This document shows positions 51,522 through 60,901 of a stretch of DNA of 64,000 nt, in pieces. Position numbers and translations under genes: made by a program. The DNA comes from Corallococcus macrosporus DSM 14697 (GTDB lineage Bacteria > Myxococcota > Myxococcia > Myxococcales > Myxococcaceae): NCBI RefSeq assembly GCF_002305895.1, contig NZ_CP022203.1, forward strand, positions 5,000,501 through 5,064,500, given 5' to 3'. The notes beneath the pieces were generated by a model. The model was not told where the DNA came from. It was given only the letters and a program-made list of their open reading frames with translations, and ran no database searches. Within the stretch, counting starts at the first letter, position 1. Every line of letters starts with the position of its first letter.

Positions 51522-51760
51522 GCCGTGTGAGCGGGCTGGGGGGGCTCCACGTCATTGCTGGCAGGCATGTCTCGCTGGTGCCACTCCTGGGCCGGAGGTG
51601 TTCCCCTTCGTGTTGACGCGCACGTCTGCTGATGGACGAGCAAACCAGCTGGTTGATGAGCATCCGTCAGGAGCATGCGAGCCGTCAGGGGGCGTGATGC
51701 CCATCAAGCCCGGCTCCGGGACGCCACCAGGGTCGATGATGGCGTCCCGAGGCCGAATGG

Positions 51761-52572
51761 CTACGCGGTGAACTGCGCGCGCTCAATCACGCCGCAGGCG
51801 AGCTCGCCGTCGACGAGCTTGCGCTTGAGGCGGGCAGCGTCGCGCAGGCAGAGCTGGGCGAGGCGGTCGAGCTCGCGATGGGCGCCCTCGCTGGCCTCGT
51901 GGAGAAGCGCGACGGCGTCACAAGGGAACAGCTCGCGCTCGCATCCGGCCAGGCGCAGGCGGTGCCGCAGGTACTCGGCGGAGTCGTCGAGAGAGACTGG
52001 GGCGATGTGTACGCGCGTGTGCAGGCGCGACAGGAGCGGTTTGTGGAGGCTCGTCGACGGACGGGCCTCGAGTTCGGGGAGGCCGCCGAGGACGACAAAG
52101 AGCAGGGCCGGCTGCCCCAGTCATCGTTGAGCAGGATGTGGAGGTGGCCAAGCACGTCGGGGTGGAGCAGGTGCGCTTCGTCGAGGAGGAAGACGGGGTG
52201 GACGCGGCTGGTGGCGAGCTCGTGCACGTGTGTGGTGACGGCGTGGAACACGGCGGCCGCGGTGGCCTTCACCTGCAGCCCGAGCGCCAGGCACAGTTGC
52301 CGATAGAAGTCGCGGCGGCCGAGCGGCGCGGTGTGGCAGTACGTCAGTCGGAAGCGCTGCTTCGGGAGGCGATGGCGCAGGGCGAGCAGGACACATGTCT
52401 TGCCGACGCCGGGCTCGCCGGCGACGAGGACGGGCTGACGCGACTCGAGGGCGTCGACGACGTCGGTGACGACGGCCTCTTTCGAGGGAGGCAGCCAGAA
52501 CTCGGCGTCGGGAATCTCCTTGGTGAAGGGCAGGTCGGCGAGGCCGAAGGCGGAGAGGAGTTGCTGGGACAT
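51761..52572 (-). pseudogene. TnsC/TniB/ExeA-like transposition ATPase, frameshifted
   Basis: AAA ATPase partner of the neighbouring transposase. From ATG 52572: FGLADLPFTKEIPDAEFWLP, Walker A AGEPGVGKTCVLLAL, Walker B HPVFLLDEAHLLHPDVL, HLHILLNDDWG. There the frame breaks at a run of four (CCCC on the plus strand, 52115-52118); one more base restores QPALLFVVLGGLPELEARPS and continues to a TAG at 51761, giving about 270 residues. Only that single base separates it from an intact gene, so it is either a recent mutation or a sequencing error. Confidence 0.8.
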
Positions 52573-52792
52573 GGTGGTGTCACTCCAAGTCGCGGGCGGT
52601 GGGGTCGAAGGGGACGAACGGGGCCGGCGGGAGGGGACTGCGTGCGCGGTGGGCGCGGGCATTGGCCTGCACGTCGAGCGGCTGCAGCTCGTAGCAGCGG
52701 CCGTCGTTCTCGACGCGGACAGAGGCGGGCAGCCCCTCGACGAGGCAGCTGGCGACATTCACCAGACGGCCGGCGAGAAAGCCGTGGCGCAC

Positions 52793-52820
52793 CTAAACCG
52801 CCTCGACGAATCCCCTAAAC
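52793..52820 (+). repeat. Left terminal inverted repeat of the IS630 element
   Basis: 28-nt end pairing with 53876-53903; 26 of 28 positions match when inverted (core ctaaaccgcctcgacga). Includes the flanking TA. Confidence 0.85.
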
Positions 52821-52856
52821 CCCGGAACGGTTGTTCCAATGAAGGGGGTGGTGGTG

Positions 52857-53447
52857 ATGGGGCAGCAGCCATTCAGGCTGACGCCCGAGCAGATGGAGGA
52901 GCGGCGATTGTTCGCCGCTTCACTGCTGAAATCGGGCTGGCGCCCAGTCGACGTAGCGGACGAGTGCGGTGTCACCCGGGGGGCGGTGTCTCAATGGTGC
53001 AAAGCCCTCGCACAGGGCGGTGTCAGGAAGCTGCGGCGCAAGCCGCATCAGGGGCGTCCCTCGCAGCTGAGCCCCTCGCAGTGGAAGCAAGTGGCCCGAG
53101 CGCTCAATGCCGGCGCTGTCAGGGCCGGCTTTCCCACGGAGCGGTGGACCCTTCCACGCATCGCACATCTCATCGAGCACCGCTGGGGCGTGCGGTACCA
53201 CCCACGCTCCCTGACGAGGCCGCTGCATCGGCTCGGGTTCTCCGCGCACCGCCCTCGTTCCCAGGCCAGCGAGCGGGATGATGCGCTCATCGAAGCTTGG
53301 GTGCGAAGAGATTGGCCTCGAATAAAAAGGGGGCTCGAAGAAGCGGGAGGACAATTGCCTTCTTGGATGAGACGGGTCACACGTTTCGGGCCCGCCTGGG
53401 CACCACCTGGGCGCCGGTGGGACAAGTCCGAGTCCTCAAGCGTCTGA
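52857..53447 (+). CDS. IS630 transposase, first frame (DNA-binding half)
   Basis: Helix-turn-helix N-terminus (GWRPVDVADECGVTRGAVSQ, WCKALAQGGVRKLRRKPHQG) and the homeodomain-like second unit (RIAHLIEHRWGVRYHPRSL, TRPLHRLGFSAHRPRSQ) of IS630 OrfA. ATG 52857 follows AGGGGG by 8 nt; ATG 52839 is the longer alternative. The slip site ATA-AAA-AGG-GGG at 53322-53333 allows a -1 shift into the catalytic frame; without it translation stops at 53447. Confidence 0.85.
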   Translation: MGQQPFRLTPEQMEERRLFAASLLKSGWRPVDVADECGVTRGAVSQWCKALAQGGVRKLRRKPHQGRPSQLSPSQWKQVARALNAGAVRAGFPTERWTLPRIAHLIEHRWGVRYHPRSLTRPLHRLGFSAHRPRSQASERDDALIEAWVRRDWPRIKRGLEEAGGQLPSWMRRVTRFGPAWAPPGRRWDKSESSSV

Positions 53448-53881
53448 GCAGGCGCCGAGAGATTTCCAGCGTCGTGCTCCTGACGGCGCCGCGGGGGCGT
53501 GAACGCCCCAAGGTGTTCGCCCGCCACTTCGTCGGCGCTGTCCACGACAAGGAAGTCATCGCCGCATTGAGGTACTTCCATCGGCGCCTCGGACGTCCGC
53601 TCGTCATCATCTGGGACCGCCTTCAGGCGCACCGTTCCAAGGCGGTCAGGGCCTGGCTGCAACGCCACTCGAAGGACGTCCTCGTCGAGTGGCTGCCCCC
53701 GTACGCTCCTGACCTCAACCCAGAGGAGGGCTGCAATGGCGTGGTGAAGGAGGCATTGCTCAACGCAACGCCCCCTGCCATTTCGGACCTCATGCGCCTG
53801 GCGCGAAGGGAATTTCGGGCCCTACAGCATCGTCCCGACGTCCTTCGCTCCTTCTTCGAGCACGCTGGGCTGGATGTTTAG
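53297..53881 (+). CDS. IS630 transposase, second frame (DDE catalytic half)
   Basis: Catalytic triad of the family in order: TIAFLDETGHTFRARL (Asp), PLVIIWDRLQAHRS (Asp), PYAPDLNPEEGCNGVVK (Glu). It has no start codon of its own with a ribosome binding site, so it is presumably made as a fusion with the first frame through -1 frameshifting at the A5-G5 run (53324-53333). Ends inside the right inverted repeat. Confidence 0.87.
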   Translation: MGAKRLASNKKGARRSGRTIAFLDETGHTFRARLGTTWAPVGQVRVLKRLSRRREISSVVLLTAPRGRERPKVFARHFVGAVHDKEVIAALRYFHRRLGRPLVIIWDRLQAHRSKAVRAWLQRHSKDVLVEWLPPYAPDLNPEEGCNGVVKEALLNATPPAISDLMRLARREFRALQHRPDVLRSFFEHAGLDV

Positions 53882-53903
53882 CGGACTCGTCGAGGCGGTT
53901 TAG
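53876..53903 (-). repeat. Right terminal inverted repeat of the IS630 element
   Basis: Inverted partner of 52793-52820, differing at two positions. It overlaps the last codons of the transposase second frame. Confidence 0.85.
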
Positions 53904-55109
53904 AAGAGGCGGCCGGCGAGGCTGACGACGCCGTCGCGGGAGACGCGGCGGCACGCCCGCACGGTGAGCGCCTCGACCAACTGCGTCTCGGAGACGAGGC
54001 GCGTCTGGTGGGAAGCCCAGACGAGGCCTGGCGTGTCGCACATGAGCGAGGCGTGCGGCTGCGAGTGGTAGTGGCGGGTGAGGAAGGTGTCGAGGCGACG
54101 CTGGACTTCGGCGAGGCGCAGCGAGCGGTCCAGGTGGTCCAGACAGGCCTCGCGAAGTGTGCGCCAGAAGCGCTCCATCTTTCCGCGAGCCTGCTAGTCC
54201 TAGAGCCTGGCGTGCACGAGCGCGATGCCCAGGCGCGGGCAGGCGGTGGCGAGCGCCTTGCCGGAGTAGGTGGAGCCGTTGTCGAGGTAGAGCGTCTCCG
54301 GCCCGCCGTGCTGGTGCGCGGCGCGCACCAGCAGGCTGAGCATGTCATCCTCGCGCTCGGTGGAGCGCGCCTCGAGCGCGACGACGTAGCGGTTCCTGTC
54401 GTCGAGCAGTGCGTGAATGCGCGGCGGCGTCCACTTCGTGCCGCCGGTGAGCACCGGGCCATGGCAGACGTCGCCGTGCCACAGCGCGCCGGGGTACGCG
54501 GCCTCCCAGCGCCGGCGCTCGAGTCCCTCGCTCGTGCCGCGCAGCGAGACGCGGTCGAGCCCGCGCTCAGTGAGCAGCCTGCGTACGGTGGCGGCGCCCA
54601 CCACGCCCTCGTGCACGCGGCCCTGGCGCACCAGCGTCGCGAGAATCAGCTCTGCGGACGCGCTCGCGCCGCACGTCGCAGACCAGTTGCTTCTCCTTCT
54701 CGTCGAGCGCCCTGGCGCGGCCCGCGTCCTTGCGCGGCTAGGGCCGCAGCGCGACGAGGCCGTGCTTGCGGAAGCGGTAGTACCACCGCTCCAGCGTCGG
54801 CACGCTGAAGTGCCGCGTGCGCTCGGCGCCGGGCGGACGGAACTTCTGCCGCGTCAGTTCCCTCAGCGCGCCGCGCAGCTCTCCGCGCGTCAACTGGCGG
54901 TGCACCACCGGGGCAATGACCTGGCTGCGGAAGATTGCAATCGCTTCACCGTGGTCCTTCGGGACGAGCTCGTCCATGGAGGTCTCCTTCCCGCCGCCGC
55001 GTCCATCGCGGGCCTGGCGGGAAGTGCACCCCTCGCATCCGTCTGGGCCGCTGGGAGCGTGCCCAACGCGGTGGGCGCGGATTCCCGAGCCACTTCGCGG
55101 TGATGGGCA

Positions 55110-55510
55110 TCAGCTCACATGTCGGGCTCCGGCGAAGGCTTGATGCGCGAGCGGCGCGCTCCGCCACGCGAGCGGCGCGTGCTCGCAGAGCGCCTGCGCC
55201 GCTCGCGCTGTGACGGCCCGGGGCCCGTCCGCCACCGCGCCGAGGTGGAGCGCGCCGAACAGCTGCCGCGCCCGCAGCTGCCGCGCCCACCTAGTGAGCG
55301 ACCGCCAGCCACGGGCGGCGTCCCCCTGGCGCCTCCAGTCGCTCGTCCGCTGTCGCACCTCGTCCGCGCCGAGGCCGCACAGGGCCCACAGCGCCAGTGC
55401 GAAGGCAATCGCCTCCCCACTGAAGCGCTTGCGTGGAGAGATGGACACGTAAGCGTCCGGCCAACGACGTGATGAGGGGCGGATGGCGAGCGGCGCGAAC
55501 CCATCATGCA
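55110..55510 (-). pseudogene. 5'-truncated small gene of the dead transposon
   Basis: The minus-strand frame reads FAPLAIRPSSRRWPDAYVSI, SPRKRFSGEAIAFALALWAL, CGLGADEVRQRTSDWRRQ and ends RHVS-TGA at 55110. Similar small genes precede the transposase in this kind of element. Reading upstream, good sequence runs into AT-richer DNA at about 55510 without a start codon, so the 5' end appears lost to the island insertion. A GTG at 55448 could still start a 112-residue product. Family not recognised. Confidence 0.5.
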
Positions 55511-55594
55511 GCCGGCTCGAACTCGGGCCTCGTTCCCTCAGCCACCGTGCTCAGCAACAACTGTCCTCCGACAACTGGCATTCCAGCGCTTGTC

Positions 55595-55607
55595 CCAGTT
55601 AAACTGG
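55595..55607. promoter_or_regulatory. 13-bp palindrome upstream of hamA
   Basis: ccagtt-a-aactgg, a perfect dyad about 80 bp before the hamA start, within the only non-coding part of the island. Possible operator or promoter element. No regulator gene lies in the island. Confidence 0.35.
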
Positions 55608-55685
55608 ACTTGCAGTCGTTCGCGACGTGCGCACGCCTGTGGATCGGAAACTCGCAGAGCATGGATGCAAGAAGGTATAGATCCA

Positions 55686-56519
55686 ATGACCTTTCAAGCG
55701 GTTAAGCCCTTTTTGGGGGAACGGGTGTCACTCAAGCTTTCAGATGCCCGCTTGACGATTCTGCGTTCCGGGTGGCAGTGCACTTTGAGTGAAAGCCAGC
55801 AGGACCGATCTCTGGCCTATTCGGTAGCAGGCCAGATCCCTTACTATTATCGCTCGCCCAGCAAGATAGCTTTGGACTTTCAAGAACGACGCCATGCGTT
55901 GGAAATGGTGCTGGATCTAGCCACCAAGATCCCTAGGACACCAAAATTTCAGCGCAGTCATTTTGGCGAAATCCTATGTTCGGTCTATCTAGAGGAAGCA
56001 TTCAGTCTTCGTCGGCTTTATGCCAAATTAAGCATGACCACGGCGGAAGATACGAACGTCCACAAAATGGACGCATTCTTTGTAAACACAAAAAAGAAAC
56101 CATACGACTACATAGCGGTTGAGGCCAAAACCAGCATCAGACCAATGCCTGGGAGCAAATTCACCGGGCACAGACAAGGAATTTACAGGCAACTCATCCA
56201 ATCTCTAGATGGCTATGGTGCATCGGACGGTCGATTTGACCTGGTGGCGATACGAGACAATCTTGAACGGGAATCTTTCACTAGCGATGAAGCAAAGCAG
56301 ATCCGCCAAGATCTAGTACCTCCTGGGCCACCATCATTGAAAATTCTCGGGATGGCAGTTGTCAACACAAACAGCGTCATACCGCAGGATATTGACTATG
56401 TCTTGACCGCCTCCTGCAAGCAAACATTCGAATTCGAGGCATTGGTTGTAACGGATTTAGCATCCCTCGCAGGCCAAGCATACAAGAACGTGAAGCAGCA
56501 CCTGGGAGGGAGGAAATAA
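55686..56519 (+). CDS. hamA: Hachiman anti-phage protein HamA (DUF1837 nuclease)
   Basis: 277 residues from ATG 55686; ATG 55665 would add seven. DUF1837 proteins are the effector of the Hachiman system and carry a PD-(D/E)XK nuclease fold. Here the candidate active-site residues are E95 (RSHFGEILCSVYLEEAF), D129 (VHKMDAFFVN) and E146-x-K148 (DYIAVEAKTS), in the right order and spacing. It should cut DNA when released or activated by HamB. The stop is immediately followed by the hamB ATG, whose ribosome binding site (GGGAGG) lies in the hamA end. AT-rich relative to neighbours. Identification is by gene pairing plus motif; the DUF call could not be searched. Confidence 0.85.
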   Translation: MTFQAVKPFLGERVSLKLSDARLTILRSGWQCTLSESQQDRSLAYSVAGQIPYYYRSPSKIALDFQERRHALEMVLDLATKIPRTPKFQRSHFGEILCSVYLEEAFSLRRLYAKLSMTTAEDTNVHKMDAFFVNTKKKPYDYIAVEAKTSIRPMPGSKFTGHRQGIYRQLIQSLDGYGASDGRFDLVAIRDNLERESFTSDEAKQIRQDLVPPGPPSLKILGMAVVNTNSVIPQDIDYVLTASCKQTFEFEALVVTDLASLAGQAYKNVKQHLGGRK

Positions 56520-59500
56520 ATGTTCTCAGAAAAGGAACTCGCGGCATGCACTGAGACCGAATGGTTTCGCGAAGACTTCTCTCGACTTAGCTATTTCTTA
56601 ACGAGTCTTCGCATCAAGGGGATGGCCGAAGACCAGCAATCGCCCAAGCCAGGACTTGGCCGATTGTCGAGGTTTTCGGAAGCCGTGTTGGCCAGTGCGG
56701 CTCAATGGCAACTAACAGAAAGCCGAATCGCATCGCGCCTGTGTACTCTTGCCGGCGACATTGAAATGGCCAGCGCAAAGTTGTCGCAACAGCAACAACG
56801 AGCAGTCGAAACGGCCCTTCATTACCTGAAGGCAGCTATTCTCTACGACCTGGGGCGACAGCCAGGCCCTGCGGCATCAGCTGGCATGAACGAGCATTTA
56901 GCTTTAGACATTCGCAACTACTTTGCTCGAGACAAAGAATCATGCTGGGGCACCATTGGAGCTTCCCGCCAACCAAATACATCACCACCCCCCGCAGAAA
57001 TTGACGACGAATCAACACAGCCATCAATCATGATTCAAGCAGCCATAAGCGAGGTGATGCTCGCTTATGGCACTGCCCTGCAGGATCCGAGCCAAGACGC
57101 ATTCATGCCGCTCTCGAATGCGCTCGCTTTCTTGCAGCAAGTCTCAACCTCTTTTTTCACAGGGCTTAATGGTGGTGACCTTGAATCACTGTCAAAGTCG
57201 CTCGAATTAAGGCGGGGAGCATCAACAGTCTTAACGCTTGAGGCTCGTTCAGCGCTCTCGCGGCCTGAACTGAAGGTACTTGGAATGCCTGTCGACTTGT
57301 GGCCTTCGCAGCAGGCCGCAATCAATGCAGGCGTGTTGAGCGATAGCATTCGCGGGTTTGGGCTGGCGGCACCGACTGGCACAGGCAAGACCGCCCTAAT
57401 GAGAATTTTGTTAGCCGATTTCCTAAAAAGAAACGAGGGGGCTCGCGCGATATATGTAGCACCAAGTCGAGCTCTGGCTGCCCAAGTGACCAAAGACCTG
57501 CAAAATTGTCTTGGACCGATAGGGATCTCCGTTGCTGGCTTGGGTGCCAGCTTGACTATATTCGAGGCGGTGCCCACTGAACTCGATGCTGCTCGCGTCT
57601 TAGTGTTCACGCCTGAAAAAGCCGATCTGATTTTGCGGATCGGGAAGCCAGCGATCAAATCTATCGGGCTTGCAGTAATCGACGAGGCTCACCATATCGA
57701 GGATGGTACTCGTGGCATTCTCCTTGAGTTTTATCTCTGGCGATTGAAATCCATCCTTGGAAGTAAGTGCAGAGTCGTGCAGTTATCTGCAGTTACGCCG
57801 AACATCAAAGATCTGACCGGGTGGCTGGACCCAAGCGAAACGTCGGAAGCGATTACAGTTGAGTGGCGCGCTGCGCCACTTCGCATTGGGACATTTGAAT
57901 GCCGAACGGATCGTAGTGGGATCTTGAATTTTGGCGAGTCTGAGATGCACCAAGTGCTCGCACCCGGGGAATGTCCAGAAGATCCAATCCAAGGCATAGC
58001 GGCACTGGCCAGCCGCCTAAGTAAAGCAGGGGTTGTTCTAGTTCTTGCGACAAGTCCAGGCAGATCTGAGGCTTTGGCTGATGAAATCTGCAAACTTCGC
58101 CAGGAACATATGCAGAGCGGAGTTTCTGCCGAGAGACTGGATGCCCGCCTAGAGCGCGAAATGCATGCGGATGTTCCGTTACGAAGTCATTTTCGCAAGC
58201 GGGTGGCCTACCATCACGCCAGGTTGCCTCCTCGGGTTCGGAGTGCAGTGGAAGCAGCAATCTCCGATCGGCTAGTTGACATTGTTTGTGCGACCACAAC
58301 TTTGGCCGAGGGGGTTAACTTCCCATTCTCGACTGTTATCGTCGAATCGCTGGTTGCCGACAATTACGAGATAAGTCCCCGCGTTCTATGGAATATTGCT
58401 GGAAGGGCAGGCCGGTTCGGAGTTGATGCGGAGGGCTATTGCATCCTCTTTCGGCCGAGTGCTTGGAAACATCGACTTAGTGAATTTTCATTCGACCAGT
58501 ACTTTCCAGAAAAGCTTCGCGACATGCCCCCTGTCCGCTCTGCGTTAGGTACTGCGATGAGCCAACTGCGGCAGGCGGTCAATAAGGGGGGGCTCAATCT
58601 TGAAAGCTTAAATCAAATTGACCTCTCCGCCTTATCAAAAGAAAGCACCGAGATTTCAGAAAGAGGCCTAAAGCGTATTAGAGGCCTCATCAACATGCTG
58701 CGGGTTGGCTATGTGCATGCAAAAGTTTCTGGAGCCATAAAACGCGAGGGCGATTGGGCCCAGCAACTTGAGCACGGAATGTTTGCCTCACAGGCAATGA
58801 ATGAGGAGGATCGAGCTTTCTGTGGCACAGTCGCCAAACAGCAGCAAAAGTTGGTTGGTGCAACTCTCGAGCGGAATACTGAGCTTCTGCAGATAGCTGC
58901 ACGAATCGGGTGGTCCTTGGAGTCACAATCGGAACTCATGAAATGGATTCGAAGCTGCAAGGATTTTCAGCTTAGGAATTTTGGCGTCATCGTCGTCGGA
59001 GGACAAATCAAAAATCCTAGCAAGTTGGGGTACCTGCTCGGGCCAGCGTCTAAGCACATGGCTGAGTTTGAGGGGGATAAATTAGGCGGCATGACGGCAT
59101 TTATTTCTTCTACTTGGCTTGAAGGCTTGCCATTAACGATTATTCGGGATCGTCAAGACAAGGAGAAAAGTTGGAGTCGCCTGATTAAAATCATTTATGC
59201 GCGCGTCATTTACCTGCTGCCTTGGGCTTTGTTTGGCATCGATGAACTGGTGCAGTATGAAGCACGAACTAGAGGCGCCAAGGTTGGTAGTGGGATCAGG
59301 GATCTTTCAGTATTGGCGTCTGAGGGCGTCCCAAGTTTCGATGCACTTCGATTGGTGCTTGAGTTAGATATAGAGCGCGTTGATGCGACTCGTTTGGCAG
59401 CCCAGTATCAGCGGGGGCGTAAGAAAACCGATGTGCTCGGCTGGCTTCGGAGGCAACAATGGCGCGACATAGTTTCGATAGTCCGCGAGCCTGATGGTCG

Positions 59501-59558
59501 GCGTCTAGATCCAGATCTGCGATCTGTTTACGAGAGACTTCAGGCAAGTTCTGATTAG
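56520..59558 (+). CDS. hamB: Hachiman anti-phage helicase HamB
   Basis: 1012 residues, normal for HamB. N-terminal ~260 residues are helical without motifs. The SF2 helicase core follows: Walker A LAAPTGTGKTALM (K290), motif Ia YVAPSRALAAQV, DEAH box LAVIDEAHHIED (388-391), motif III QLSAVTP, motif V VCATTTLAEGVNFPFSTVIV and motif VI WNIAGRAGRFG. The C-terminal ~300 residues are helical, as in Ski2-like helicases. HamB is thought to bind HamA and to sense or process DNA structures from phage replication. All helicase motifs look intact, so the system is probably functional. Abuts hamA with no gap. Confidence 0.88.
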   Translation: MFSEKELAACTETEWFREDFSRLSYFLTSLRIKGMAEDQQSPKPGLGRLSRFSEAVLASAAQWQLTESRIASRLCTLAGDIEMASAKLSQQQQRAVETALHYLKAAILYDLGRQPGPAASAGMNEHLALDIRNYFARDKESCWGTIGASRQPNTSPPPAEIDDESTQPSIMIQAAISEVMLAYGTALQDPSQDAFMPLSNALAFLQQVSTSFFTGLNGGDLESLSKSLELRRGASTVLTLEARSALSRPELKVLGMPVDLWPSQQAAINAGVLSDSIRGFGLAAPTGTGKTALMRILLADFLKRNEGARAIYVAPSRALAAQVTKDLQNCLGPIGISVAGLGASLTIFEAVPTELDAARVLVFTPEKADLILRIGKPAIKSIGLAVIDEAHHIEDGTRGILLEFYLWRLKSILGSKCRVVQLSAVTPNIKDLTGWLDPSETSEAITVEWRAAPLRIGTFECRTDRSGILNFGESEMHQVLAPGECPEDPIQGIAALASRLSKAGVVLVLATSPGRSEALADEICKLRQEHMQSGVSAERLDARLEREMHADVPLRSHFRKRVAYHHARLPPRVRSAVEAAISDRLVDIVCATTTLAEGVNFPFSTVIVESLVADNYEISPRVLWNIAGRAGRFGVDAEGYCILFRPSAWKHRLSEFSFDQYFPEKLRDMPPVRSALGTAMSQLRQAVNKGGLNLESLNQIDLSALSKESTEISERGLKRIRGLINMLRVGYVHAKVSGAIKREGDWAQQLEHGMFASQAMNEEDRAFCGTVAKQQQKLVGATLERNTELLQIAARIGWSLESQSELMKWIRSCKDFQLRNFGVIVVGGQIKNPSKLGYLLGPASKHMAEFEGDKLGGMTAFISSTWLEGLPLTIIRDRQDKEKSWSRLIKIIYARVIYLLPWALFGIDELVQYEARTRGAKVGSGIRDLSVLASEGVPSFDALRLVLELDIERVDATRLAAQYQRGRKKTDVLGWLRRQQWRDIVSIVREPDGRRLDPDLRSVYERLQASSD

Positions 59559-59734
59559 GTGACTAATTTCACCTGAACAGTTGTCTCAAAGTCATGCGGC
59601 GTGACCTCCTCCTGCACTTGGCAGGAGCGCAGGGAAATGGCTGCATTATCGTGAGGCTGTACCCGCCATGGTAATCGGCACGACCCGCTGGCGGCGCCAG
59701 TTCGCTAGATCGTTTAAGGAGGAACACGGGGGCA

Positions 59735-60180
59735 GCACCGAGCGTGGTGCGCACGGCCGCCCACCGCGAAATGCGTCAACTGCACAGCGCCCCGGTCCTC
59801 GCCAAGCTGCATGCCTGGCTGGACGCCCAGGCACCGCATCACCCGCCCAAGAGTCCACTGGGCCAGGCCATCTCCTACGCCCTCAAGCAGTGGGAAGCCC
59901 TCACACGCTTCGTGGAGAATGAGCGCCTGCCTCTCGACAACAATCGCTCGGAGGCGGCGCTGAGAAAGGCGGCCCTGGGCCGCAAAAACTTTCTCTTCGT
60001 CGGCCACGAGGCCGCGGGAGAGAACCTCGCCGGCATCTACGCGCTGGTGGCCACCTGCGAGGCCAACCAAATCAATCCCGAGGCGTATCTGGCCGACGTG
60101 CTGCTGCGTGTGCAGGCGCCCCAACCCGCGCATCGGTGAGCTGCTACCCACGAGTGGGTGCGACGACGCGCCGCCGAACT
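59735..60180 (+). pseudogene. IS66-family transposase (TnpC) C-terminal fragment
   Basis: Begins mid-protein at the island edge (REMRQLHSAPVLAKLHAWL) and contains the hallmark C-terminal blocks: PLGQAISYALKQWEALTRF, RLPLDNNRSEAALRKAALGR, KNFLFVGHEAAGENLAGIYA, LVATCEANQINPEAYLADVL. Near the end the frame shifts (stop TGA at 60137-60139, while PNPRIGELLPTSG continues in another frame). The N-terminal two thirds are absent. Just upstream (59668-59720) RWRRQFARSFKEE may be the start of another insertion-sequence frame. Confidence 0.8.
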
Positions 60181-60259
60181 GGCCCAGTCCCCCCGCCAGC
60201 CCAGTCCCTGAACACCCTCGCGGCGCTCGCCGAGCACGGTCCTCGTCCGTCGTTAAACT

Positions 60260-60901
60260 TCCCGGCACGACGTCCACCGGACGGTTACGATGAAGCCGCA
60301 ACACAGACGTCAGCTCACCAAATCGTGACGCCGGGTACACCATGAACAGCGTGCCTCGCGGCACCAGCAGGTGGTCCGCCGCGCGCACCACATCCTGGAG
60401 TTCACACGCCAGTTCATGCCGAGCAACCGCCTTCTCCATGGACACGCTGCTGCGCCCCGCAGCCCGCGCCCGGTACGGTGGATTGCACAGCACATGCGCG
60501 AAGCCGCCCGCAGCGAACTGTGCCCCTACCCTGCGCAGGTTCCCCTGCACCAGCGACACCTCGCGCTCACAGCGGTTGAGGTACACGTTCCGCTCGGCCT
60601 GGGAGAACAGACGCCGCTGAAGCTCCAGCGCAGTGATGTCCTTGCGCCCCAGCTTGCGCGCGAGCACCAGGGGGATGGTTCCGCAGCCCGTGTCCAAATC
60701 CATCAACCGCCCCCGCTGCGCCCTCGTCCATGGCGAAGTGCGCCAGCAACAGCGGGTCCAACGTGAAGCGGTACCCCTGACGGCGTTGCAGCACCTGCAC
60801 CCCGCCGCCACAGAATCCAGCGTCTCCCCGGACCCCGGCCGGATTTCGAGCGGAACACGCCGGAGAAGGTCCTCCGGCGGGCTTTGGCTCAGGATCCACA
60901 C
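60260..60901 (-). pseudogene. tRNA1(Val) N6-adenine methyltransferase-like gene, truncated and frameshifted
   Basis: From GTG 60901 on the minus strand: VWILSQSPPEDLLRRVPLEI, then a shift to GGGVQVLQRRQGYRFTLDPL, LLAHFAMDEG, then a shift back near 60700 to LMDLDTGCGTIPLVLARKLG (SAM-binding), HVLCNPPYRARAAG (NPPY catalytic motif) and VPRGTLFMVYPASRFGELTS, after which homology fades at about 60290, where IS66 debris begins. The TrmN6 pattern is clear, but two indels and the lost C-terminus make it non-functional as read. It starts 8 bp after the DUF1015 stop, so it was probably the second gene of that operon. Confidence 0.75.

Follow-up and report, generated by a model that had tools for sequence, protein, structure and literature searches.

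What is encoded on a segment of AT-richer DNA in the chromosome of Corallococcus macrosporus DSM 14697, and could it serve in phage defence? We analysed a window of 64,000 nucleotides around this segment. Two open reading frames, hamA with 277 and hamB with 1012 residues, were present (Table 1), and the ATG of hamB directly followed the stop codon of hamA. In all likelihood they make up a complete Hachiman (HamAB) anti-phage system with two genes in the type I layout, which belongs to a deeply diverged, rare lineage and was acquired from elsewhere.

The GC content was 49% for hamA, 52% for hamB and 52% for the patch overall, whereas segments of 3.9 kb from the rest of the window had a mean of 71% (sd 1.7 points, minimum 67%). 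At the third codon position hamAB had a GC content of only 51-53%. By composition, the hamAB DNA is clearly foreign to its host. The preliminary description had reported two abutting genes in DNA of different composition, and both frames as well as the contrast in GC content were found exactly as described. Of the range given there, 55505-59740, the AT-rich island was real, while its ends had to be refined to approximately 55560 and 59744, between remnants of insertion sequences (IS). Because a distant virus-catalogue contig, IMGVR_UViG_3300050190_000122 (L047), carries the same two genes at full length and in the same order, hamAB is not a chance frame; both genes are real and have been kept together. 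The HamA homologue of L047 begins at the position equivalent to 55686, and the start of hamA was therefore fixed there. A longer hamA starting at 55506 was rejected, since the additional stretch lies largely in an IS end.

Table 1. Features of the hamAB locus (positions within the window; L047 and G120 denote the virus-catalogue contig and a comparison genome).
Feature	Position	Strand	Basis or remarks
IS630-type IS inside upstream transposon	52793..53903	+	28-nt inverted repeats; Pfam HTH_33 and DDE_3; uninterrupted copy in G120
IS66-family left terminal 33 nt	55449..55481	+	100% identical to left end of intact IS66
75-nt end of multi-copy transposon (rve transposase and AAA ATPase), directly upstream of AT-rich segment	55485..55559		matched at 81-88% in several genomes, frequently at the ends of contigs
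AT-richer foreign segment	55560..59744		composition; limits from flanking IS sequences
Short leader before hamA	55560..55685	+	ribosome-binding-like AGAAGG at ~55670
hamA, predicted HamA/DUF1837 nuclease, 277 aa	55686..56519	+	PF08878; fold match; start supported by L047
hamB, Ski2-like SF2 helicase, 1012 aa, N-terminal helical region, without E. coli-type C-terminal tail	56520..59558	+	PADLOC HamB1; fold match; C-terminal comparison
IS66-family right 544 nt (C-terminal transposase fragment and right terminus)	59745..60288	+	94% identical to intact copy; Pfam DDE_Tnp_IS66

HamA was recognised by Pfam PF08878 with 34.1 bits at a curated cut-off of 25. The match to the HamA models of PADLOC was weak (21 bits at best), and NCBIfam gave no match for the protein. 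The nuclease residues E95, D129, E146 and K148, which had been proposed beforehand, were present and aligned with conserved HamA positions. In an alignment of 19 sequences, consisting of the window HamA and 18 other HamA-like proteins, E95 and D129 were invariant and E146-x-K148 was located in the ExK column. The glycine of the GExK motif is replaced by valine in the window HamA, where the motif reads VEAK. A profile built from this alignment, with the window HamA included, matched the solved E. coli HamA 8vx9_A with E = 2e-31, and E138 and K140 of 8vx9_A shared columns with E146 and K148. In HamA of E. coli ECOR31 changing E138/K140 abolishes defence (PMC12278908). The AlphaFold2 model of HamA had a pLDDT of 79 and a pTM of 0.83; this model and that of HamB were both built from alignments that included other Hachiman proteins. 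Its best fold matches were 8vx9_A with a Z-score of 14.7 over 241 residues and 8zue_A with 14.6, followed by the next unrelated fold at 6.9. Strong matches were limited to chains of the Hachiman/AbpA type. The protein consists of a single domain with an intact active-site motif, and no second domain was detected.

The best PADLOC family for HamB was HamB1 with 221 bits, and PDC-M23B was a close second with 199 bits. The motifs of an SF2 helicase were intact throughout, as had been claimed: PTGTGKT at 285-291 with K290, TPEK at 364-367, DEAH at 388-391, TTTLAEGVN at 592-600 and AGRAGR at 627-632. The HamB model (pLDDT 70) aligned with solved HamB (8vxa/8vx9) from residue 1 over 927 residues with a Z-score of 27.4. 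The helicases Brr2, Hel308 and Pol-theta reached nearly equal Z-scores for the core, but their alignment began only at about residue 234. From residue 4 to about 234 the model is helical. According to Tuck and colleagues, HamB proteins share an N-terminal HamA-binding bundle (NAH) that related Ski2 helicases lack (PMC12278908). The N-terminal helical region of the window HamB is predicted to correspond to this bundle, in a part of the model that is of low confidence (pLDDT mostly 32-73). At the other end, the window HamB is without a C-terminal tail beyond its last conserved block. The tail is likewise absent from HamB of L047 and also short in L028, a protein of the HamB1 type in PADLOC. Thus the C-terminal OB-like barrel does not appear to be required for membership in Hachiman. 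Being distant, the pair can serve to test what is indispensable in HamAB: it has retained the active site and the N-terminal bundle and lost the C-terminal tail.

The preliminary description had arrived at the name Hachiman from the pairing of a DUF1837 protein with a helicase. The name is borne out by the Pfam match of HamA and by both predicted folds, which match solved Hachiman proteins best. Moreover, the helicase did not group with a different two-gene system, although PDC-M23B scores nearly as well as HamB1 and the window HamB branches weakly with it. Among characterised systems, HamAB of E. coli ECOR31 (type I; PDB 8VX9, 8VXA, 8VXY) has in common with the window pair the gene order, the nuclease residues, the Ski2-type motifs, the N-terminal helical region and both folds. 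On the other hand, identity in structure-based alignments was only about 16-19%, the GExK motif of the ECOR31 type is VEAK in the window HamA, and the OB-like barrel of ECOR31 HamB resides in the tail that the window HamB does not have. AbpAB, a Hachiman-like system of E. coli (PDB 8ZUE, 9WH1), also combines a HamA-like domain of nearly equal fold score with a helicase. AbpA carries a Cap4-type nuclease N-terminal to its HamA domain (PMC10732053), whereas the window HamA stands alone with its own active site intact. In HamMAB a trypsin-like protease is fused to HamA, an MBL nuclease is encoded upstream and the HamA active site is lost (PMC12799240). This system was rejected for the window pair, in which the 277-residue HamA is a single domain with an intact motif and the upstream frames are transposon genes. 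A search of the genome for hamC (DUF3223) of Hachiman type II gave no match, and the control search likewise matched nowhere.

How widespread is the pair? A gene of the HamA family was present in 13 of the 195 genomes of the phylum, none of them close to the window HamA, and same-genus genomes had no gene of its lineage. The pair on L047 shares 43% identity in HamA (BLAST E 1e-72) and 42% in HamB. This contig is AT-rich with a GC content of 31-35%, and the genes next to the pair are of the GIY-YIG and HNH types. The catalytic blocks HFGEI, TNVHKMD and ExKTS are common to both HamA proteins. Further scans for a third member of the lineage found none. Single-protein scans of genome contigs with HamB and with HamA as well as tblastn searches of plasmids and phages with HamA yielded no relative. 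The best plasmid helicases matched HamB with 25-32%, mostly in the core only, and fall into other branches that are either of HamB or PDC-M23-like. The window and L047 pairs represent a real, rare lineage far from the known subfamilies. With them, Hachiman comes to include a lineage that is scarcely recognised by current models of HamA.

In trees of HamB the window and L047 proteins clustered together (100%), and their long branch lay among the HamB types to which that of E. coli belongs. A rival placement would put the pair within PDC-M23, or closest to it, instead of within Hachiman proper, in which case trigger or effector may differ. PDC-M23 is a candidate system of PADLOC that also consists of a HamB-like helicase and a small upstream nuclease with an E...D...GExK pattern; it differs in that its nuclease is below the HamA cut-off and matches the window HamA weakly or not at all in profile comparisons. 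The similar helicase scores, 199 bits with PDC-M23B versus 221 with HamB1, and a weak grouping of the window HamB with PDC-M23B (86/84) would be compatible with such a placement, but a grouping with the E. coli-type branch was not rejected (p-AU 0.079). The nuclease argues for Hachiman. It did not match PDC-M23A of PADLOC at E<=1, yet exceeded the HamA cut-off, and in profile comparisons it showed a probability of 95% with HamA versus 3.6% with the PDC-M23 nucleases of L038 and L039 (hhalign). Furthermore, PDC-M23A is itself HamA-like, and both may be one superfamily. We thus regard an assignment to PDC-M23 as quite improbable.

The PDC-M23A nucleases of the candidate pairs in relatives (L038:5039-9099 and L039:4703-8748) reached 17.9 and 14.7 bits, which is under the HamA cut-off. 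Since their E...D...GExK pattern is HamA-like and HamA profiles match them, if weakly, PDC-M23 probably represents a distant branch of Hachiman within the same superfamily, as is also suggested by the window pair. A further-reaching view, which we consider rather unlikely, is that the window and L047 pairs form a branch of their own within the Hachiman superfamily. This branch and PDC-M23 would connect the classical types of HamAB, and the branch would have a trigger or a restraint of HamA of its own.

The diverged Hachiman pair is situated in a variable chromosomal slot (51612-60288). The content of the slot differs among the same-genus genomes examined; shared chromosome extends up to about 51612 and starts again at about 60288. 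The slot contains a transposon with rve transposase and AAA ATPase, which is interrupted by the IS630-type element; hamAB follows, and after it the right-hand 544 nt of IS66. Only IS genes flank hamAB. A defence island was rejected, as there was no other PADLOC match among ten flanking proteins. An intact IS66 copy with an 8-bp target duplication is located on the same chromosome (G000:C1:5246508-5248884). Both exact IS66 termini are present around hamAB, but they have no 8-bp target duplication, and the left terminus is separated from hamA by the end of the other transposon. A clean IS66 transposon carrying HamAB was therefore dismissed, and a rearranged mosaic is the more likely setting than a mobile HamAB-carrying element.

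Genes stranded among IS remnants might look intact and still be a silent passenger, unexpressed or non-functional in the host. The codon composition of hamAB is unadapted, and a scan of 55560-55685 on the hamA strand found no consensus sigma-70 promoter; a consensus scan is, however, blind to other promoter types, and hamA is preceded by a ribosome-binding-like site. The 3.9 kb of hamAB are without frameshift or stop, and every motif is kept. Silence is a minor possibility, and the diverged Hachiman pair is probably functional.

The ECOR31 system is a DNA-damage-sensing, self-destructive defence (PMC12278908). By homology, HamB of the window would bind HamA via the N-terminal helical bundle and patrol DNA. 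Loading of HamB on damaged or replicating phage DNA would lead to hydrolysis of ATP and to release or switching-on of HamA. HamA would then degrade phage and host DNA alike, and infection would be stopped by cell death. For the window pair we infer that the two proteins form a complex, respond to such a trigger, degrade DNA and confer resistance to phages, and that the genes are expressed; the view of how Hachiman works is left unchanged by the pair. A role of nuclease and helicase in DNA repair or plasmid control instead of phage defence appears highly improbable. Helicases of the Ski2/Hel308/Brr2 type are near HamB by fold, and Hachiman responds to DNA damage even without phage (PMC12278908). 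Yet the HamA domain, the gene pairing and the N-terminal helical region are hallmarks of Hachiman, and a sparse, patchy distribution and foreign composition are ill-suited to a housekeeping gene.

Some relatives encountered in the searches are unusual in their own right. On a Nostoc plasmid, a gene with the annotation HamA (1409 aa; L043:3321-7550) was matched in a HamB-like helicase region and is apparently a HamA-HamB fusion. The nuclease partner on a Rhizobium plasmid (L045:3257-4111), which is encoded beside a CBASS operon, has QVK at the expected ExK, and its active site may be lost. Finally, HamAB occurs as two tandem copies (L018:4122-12194) in G064, a genome from the same family.
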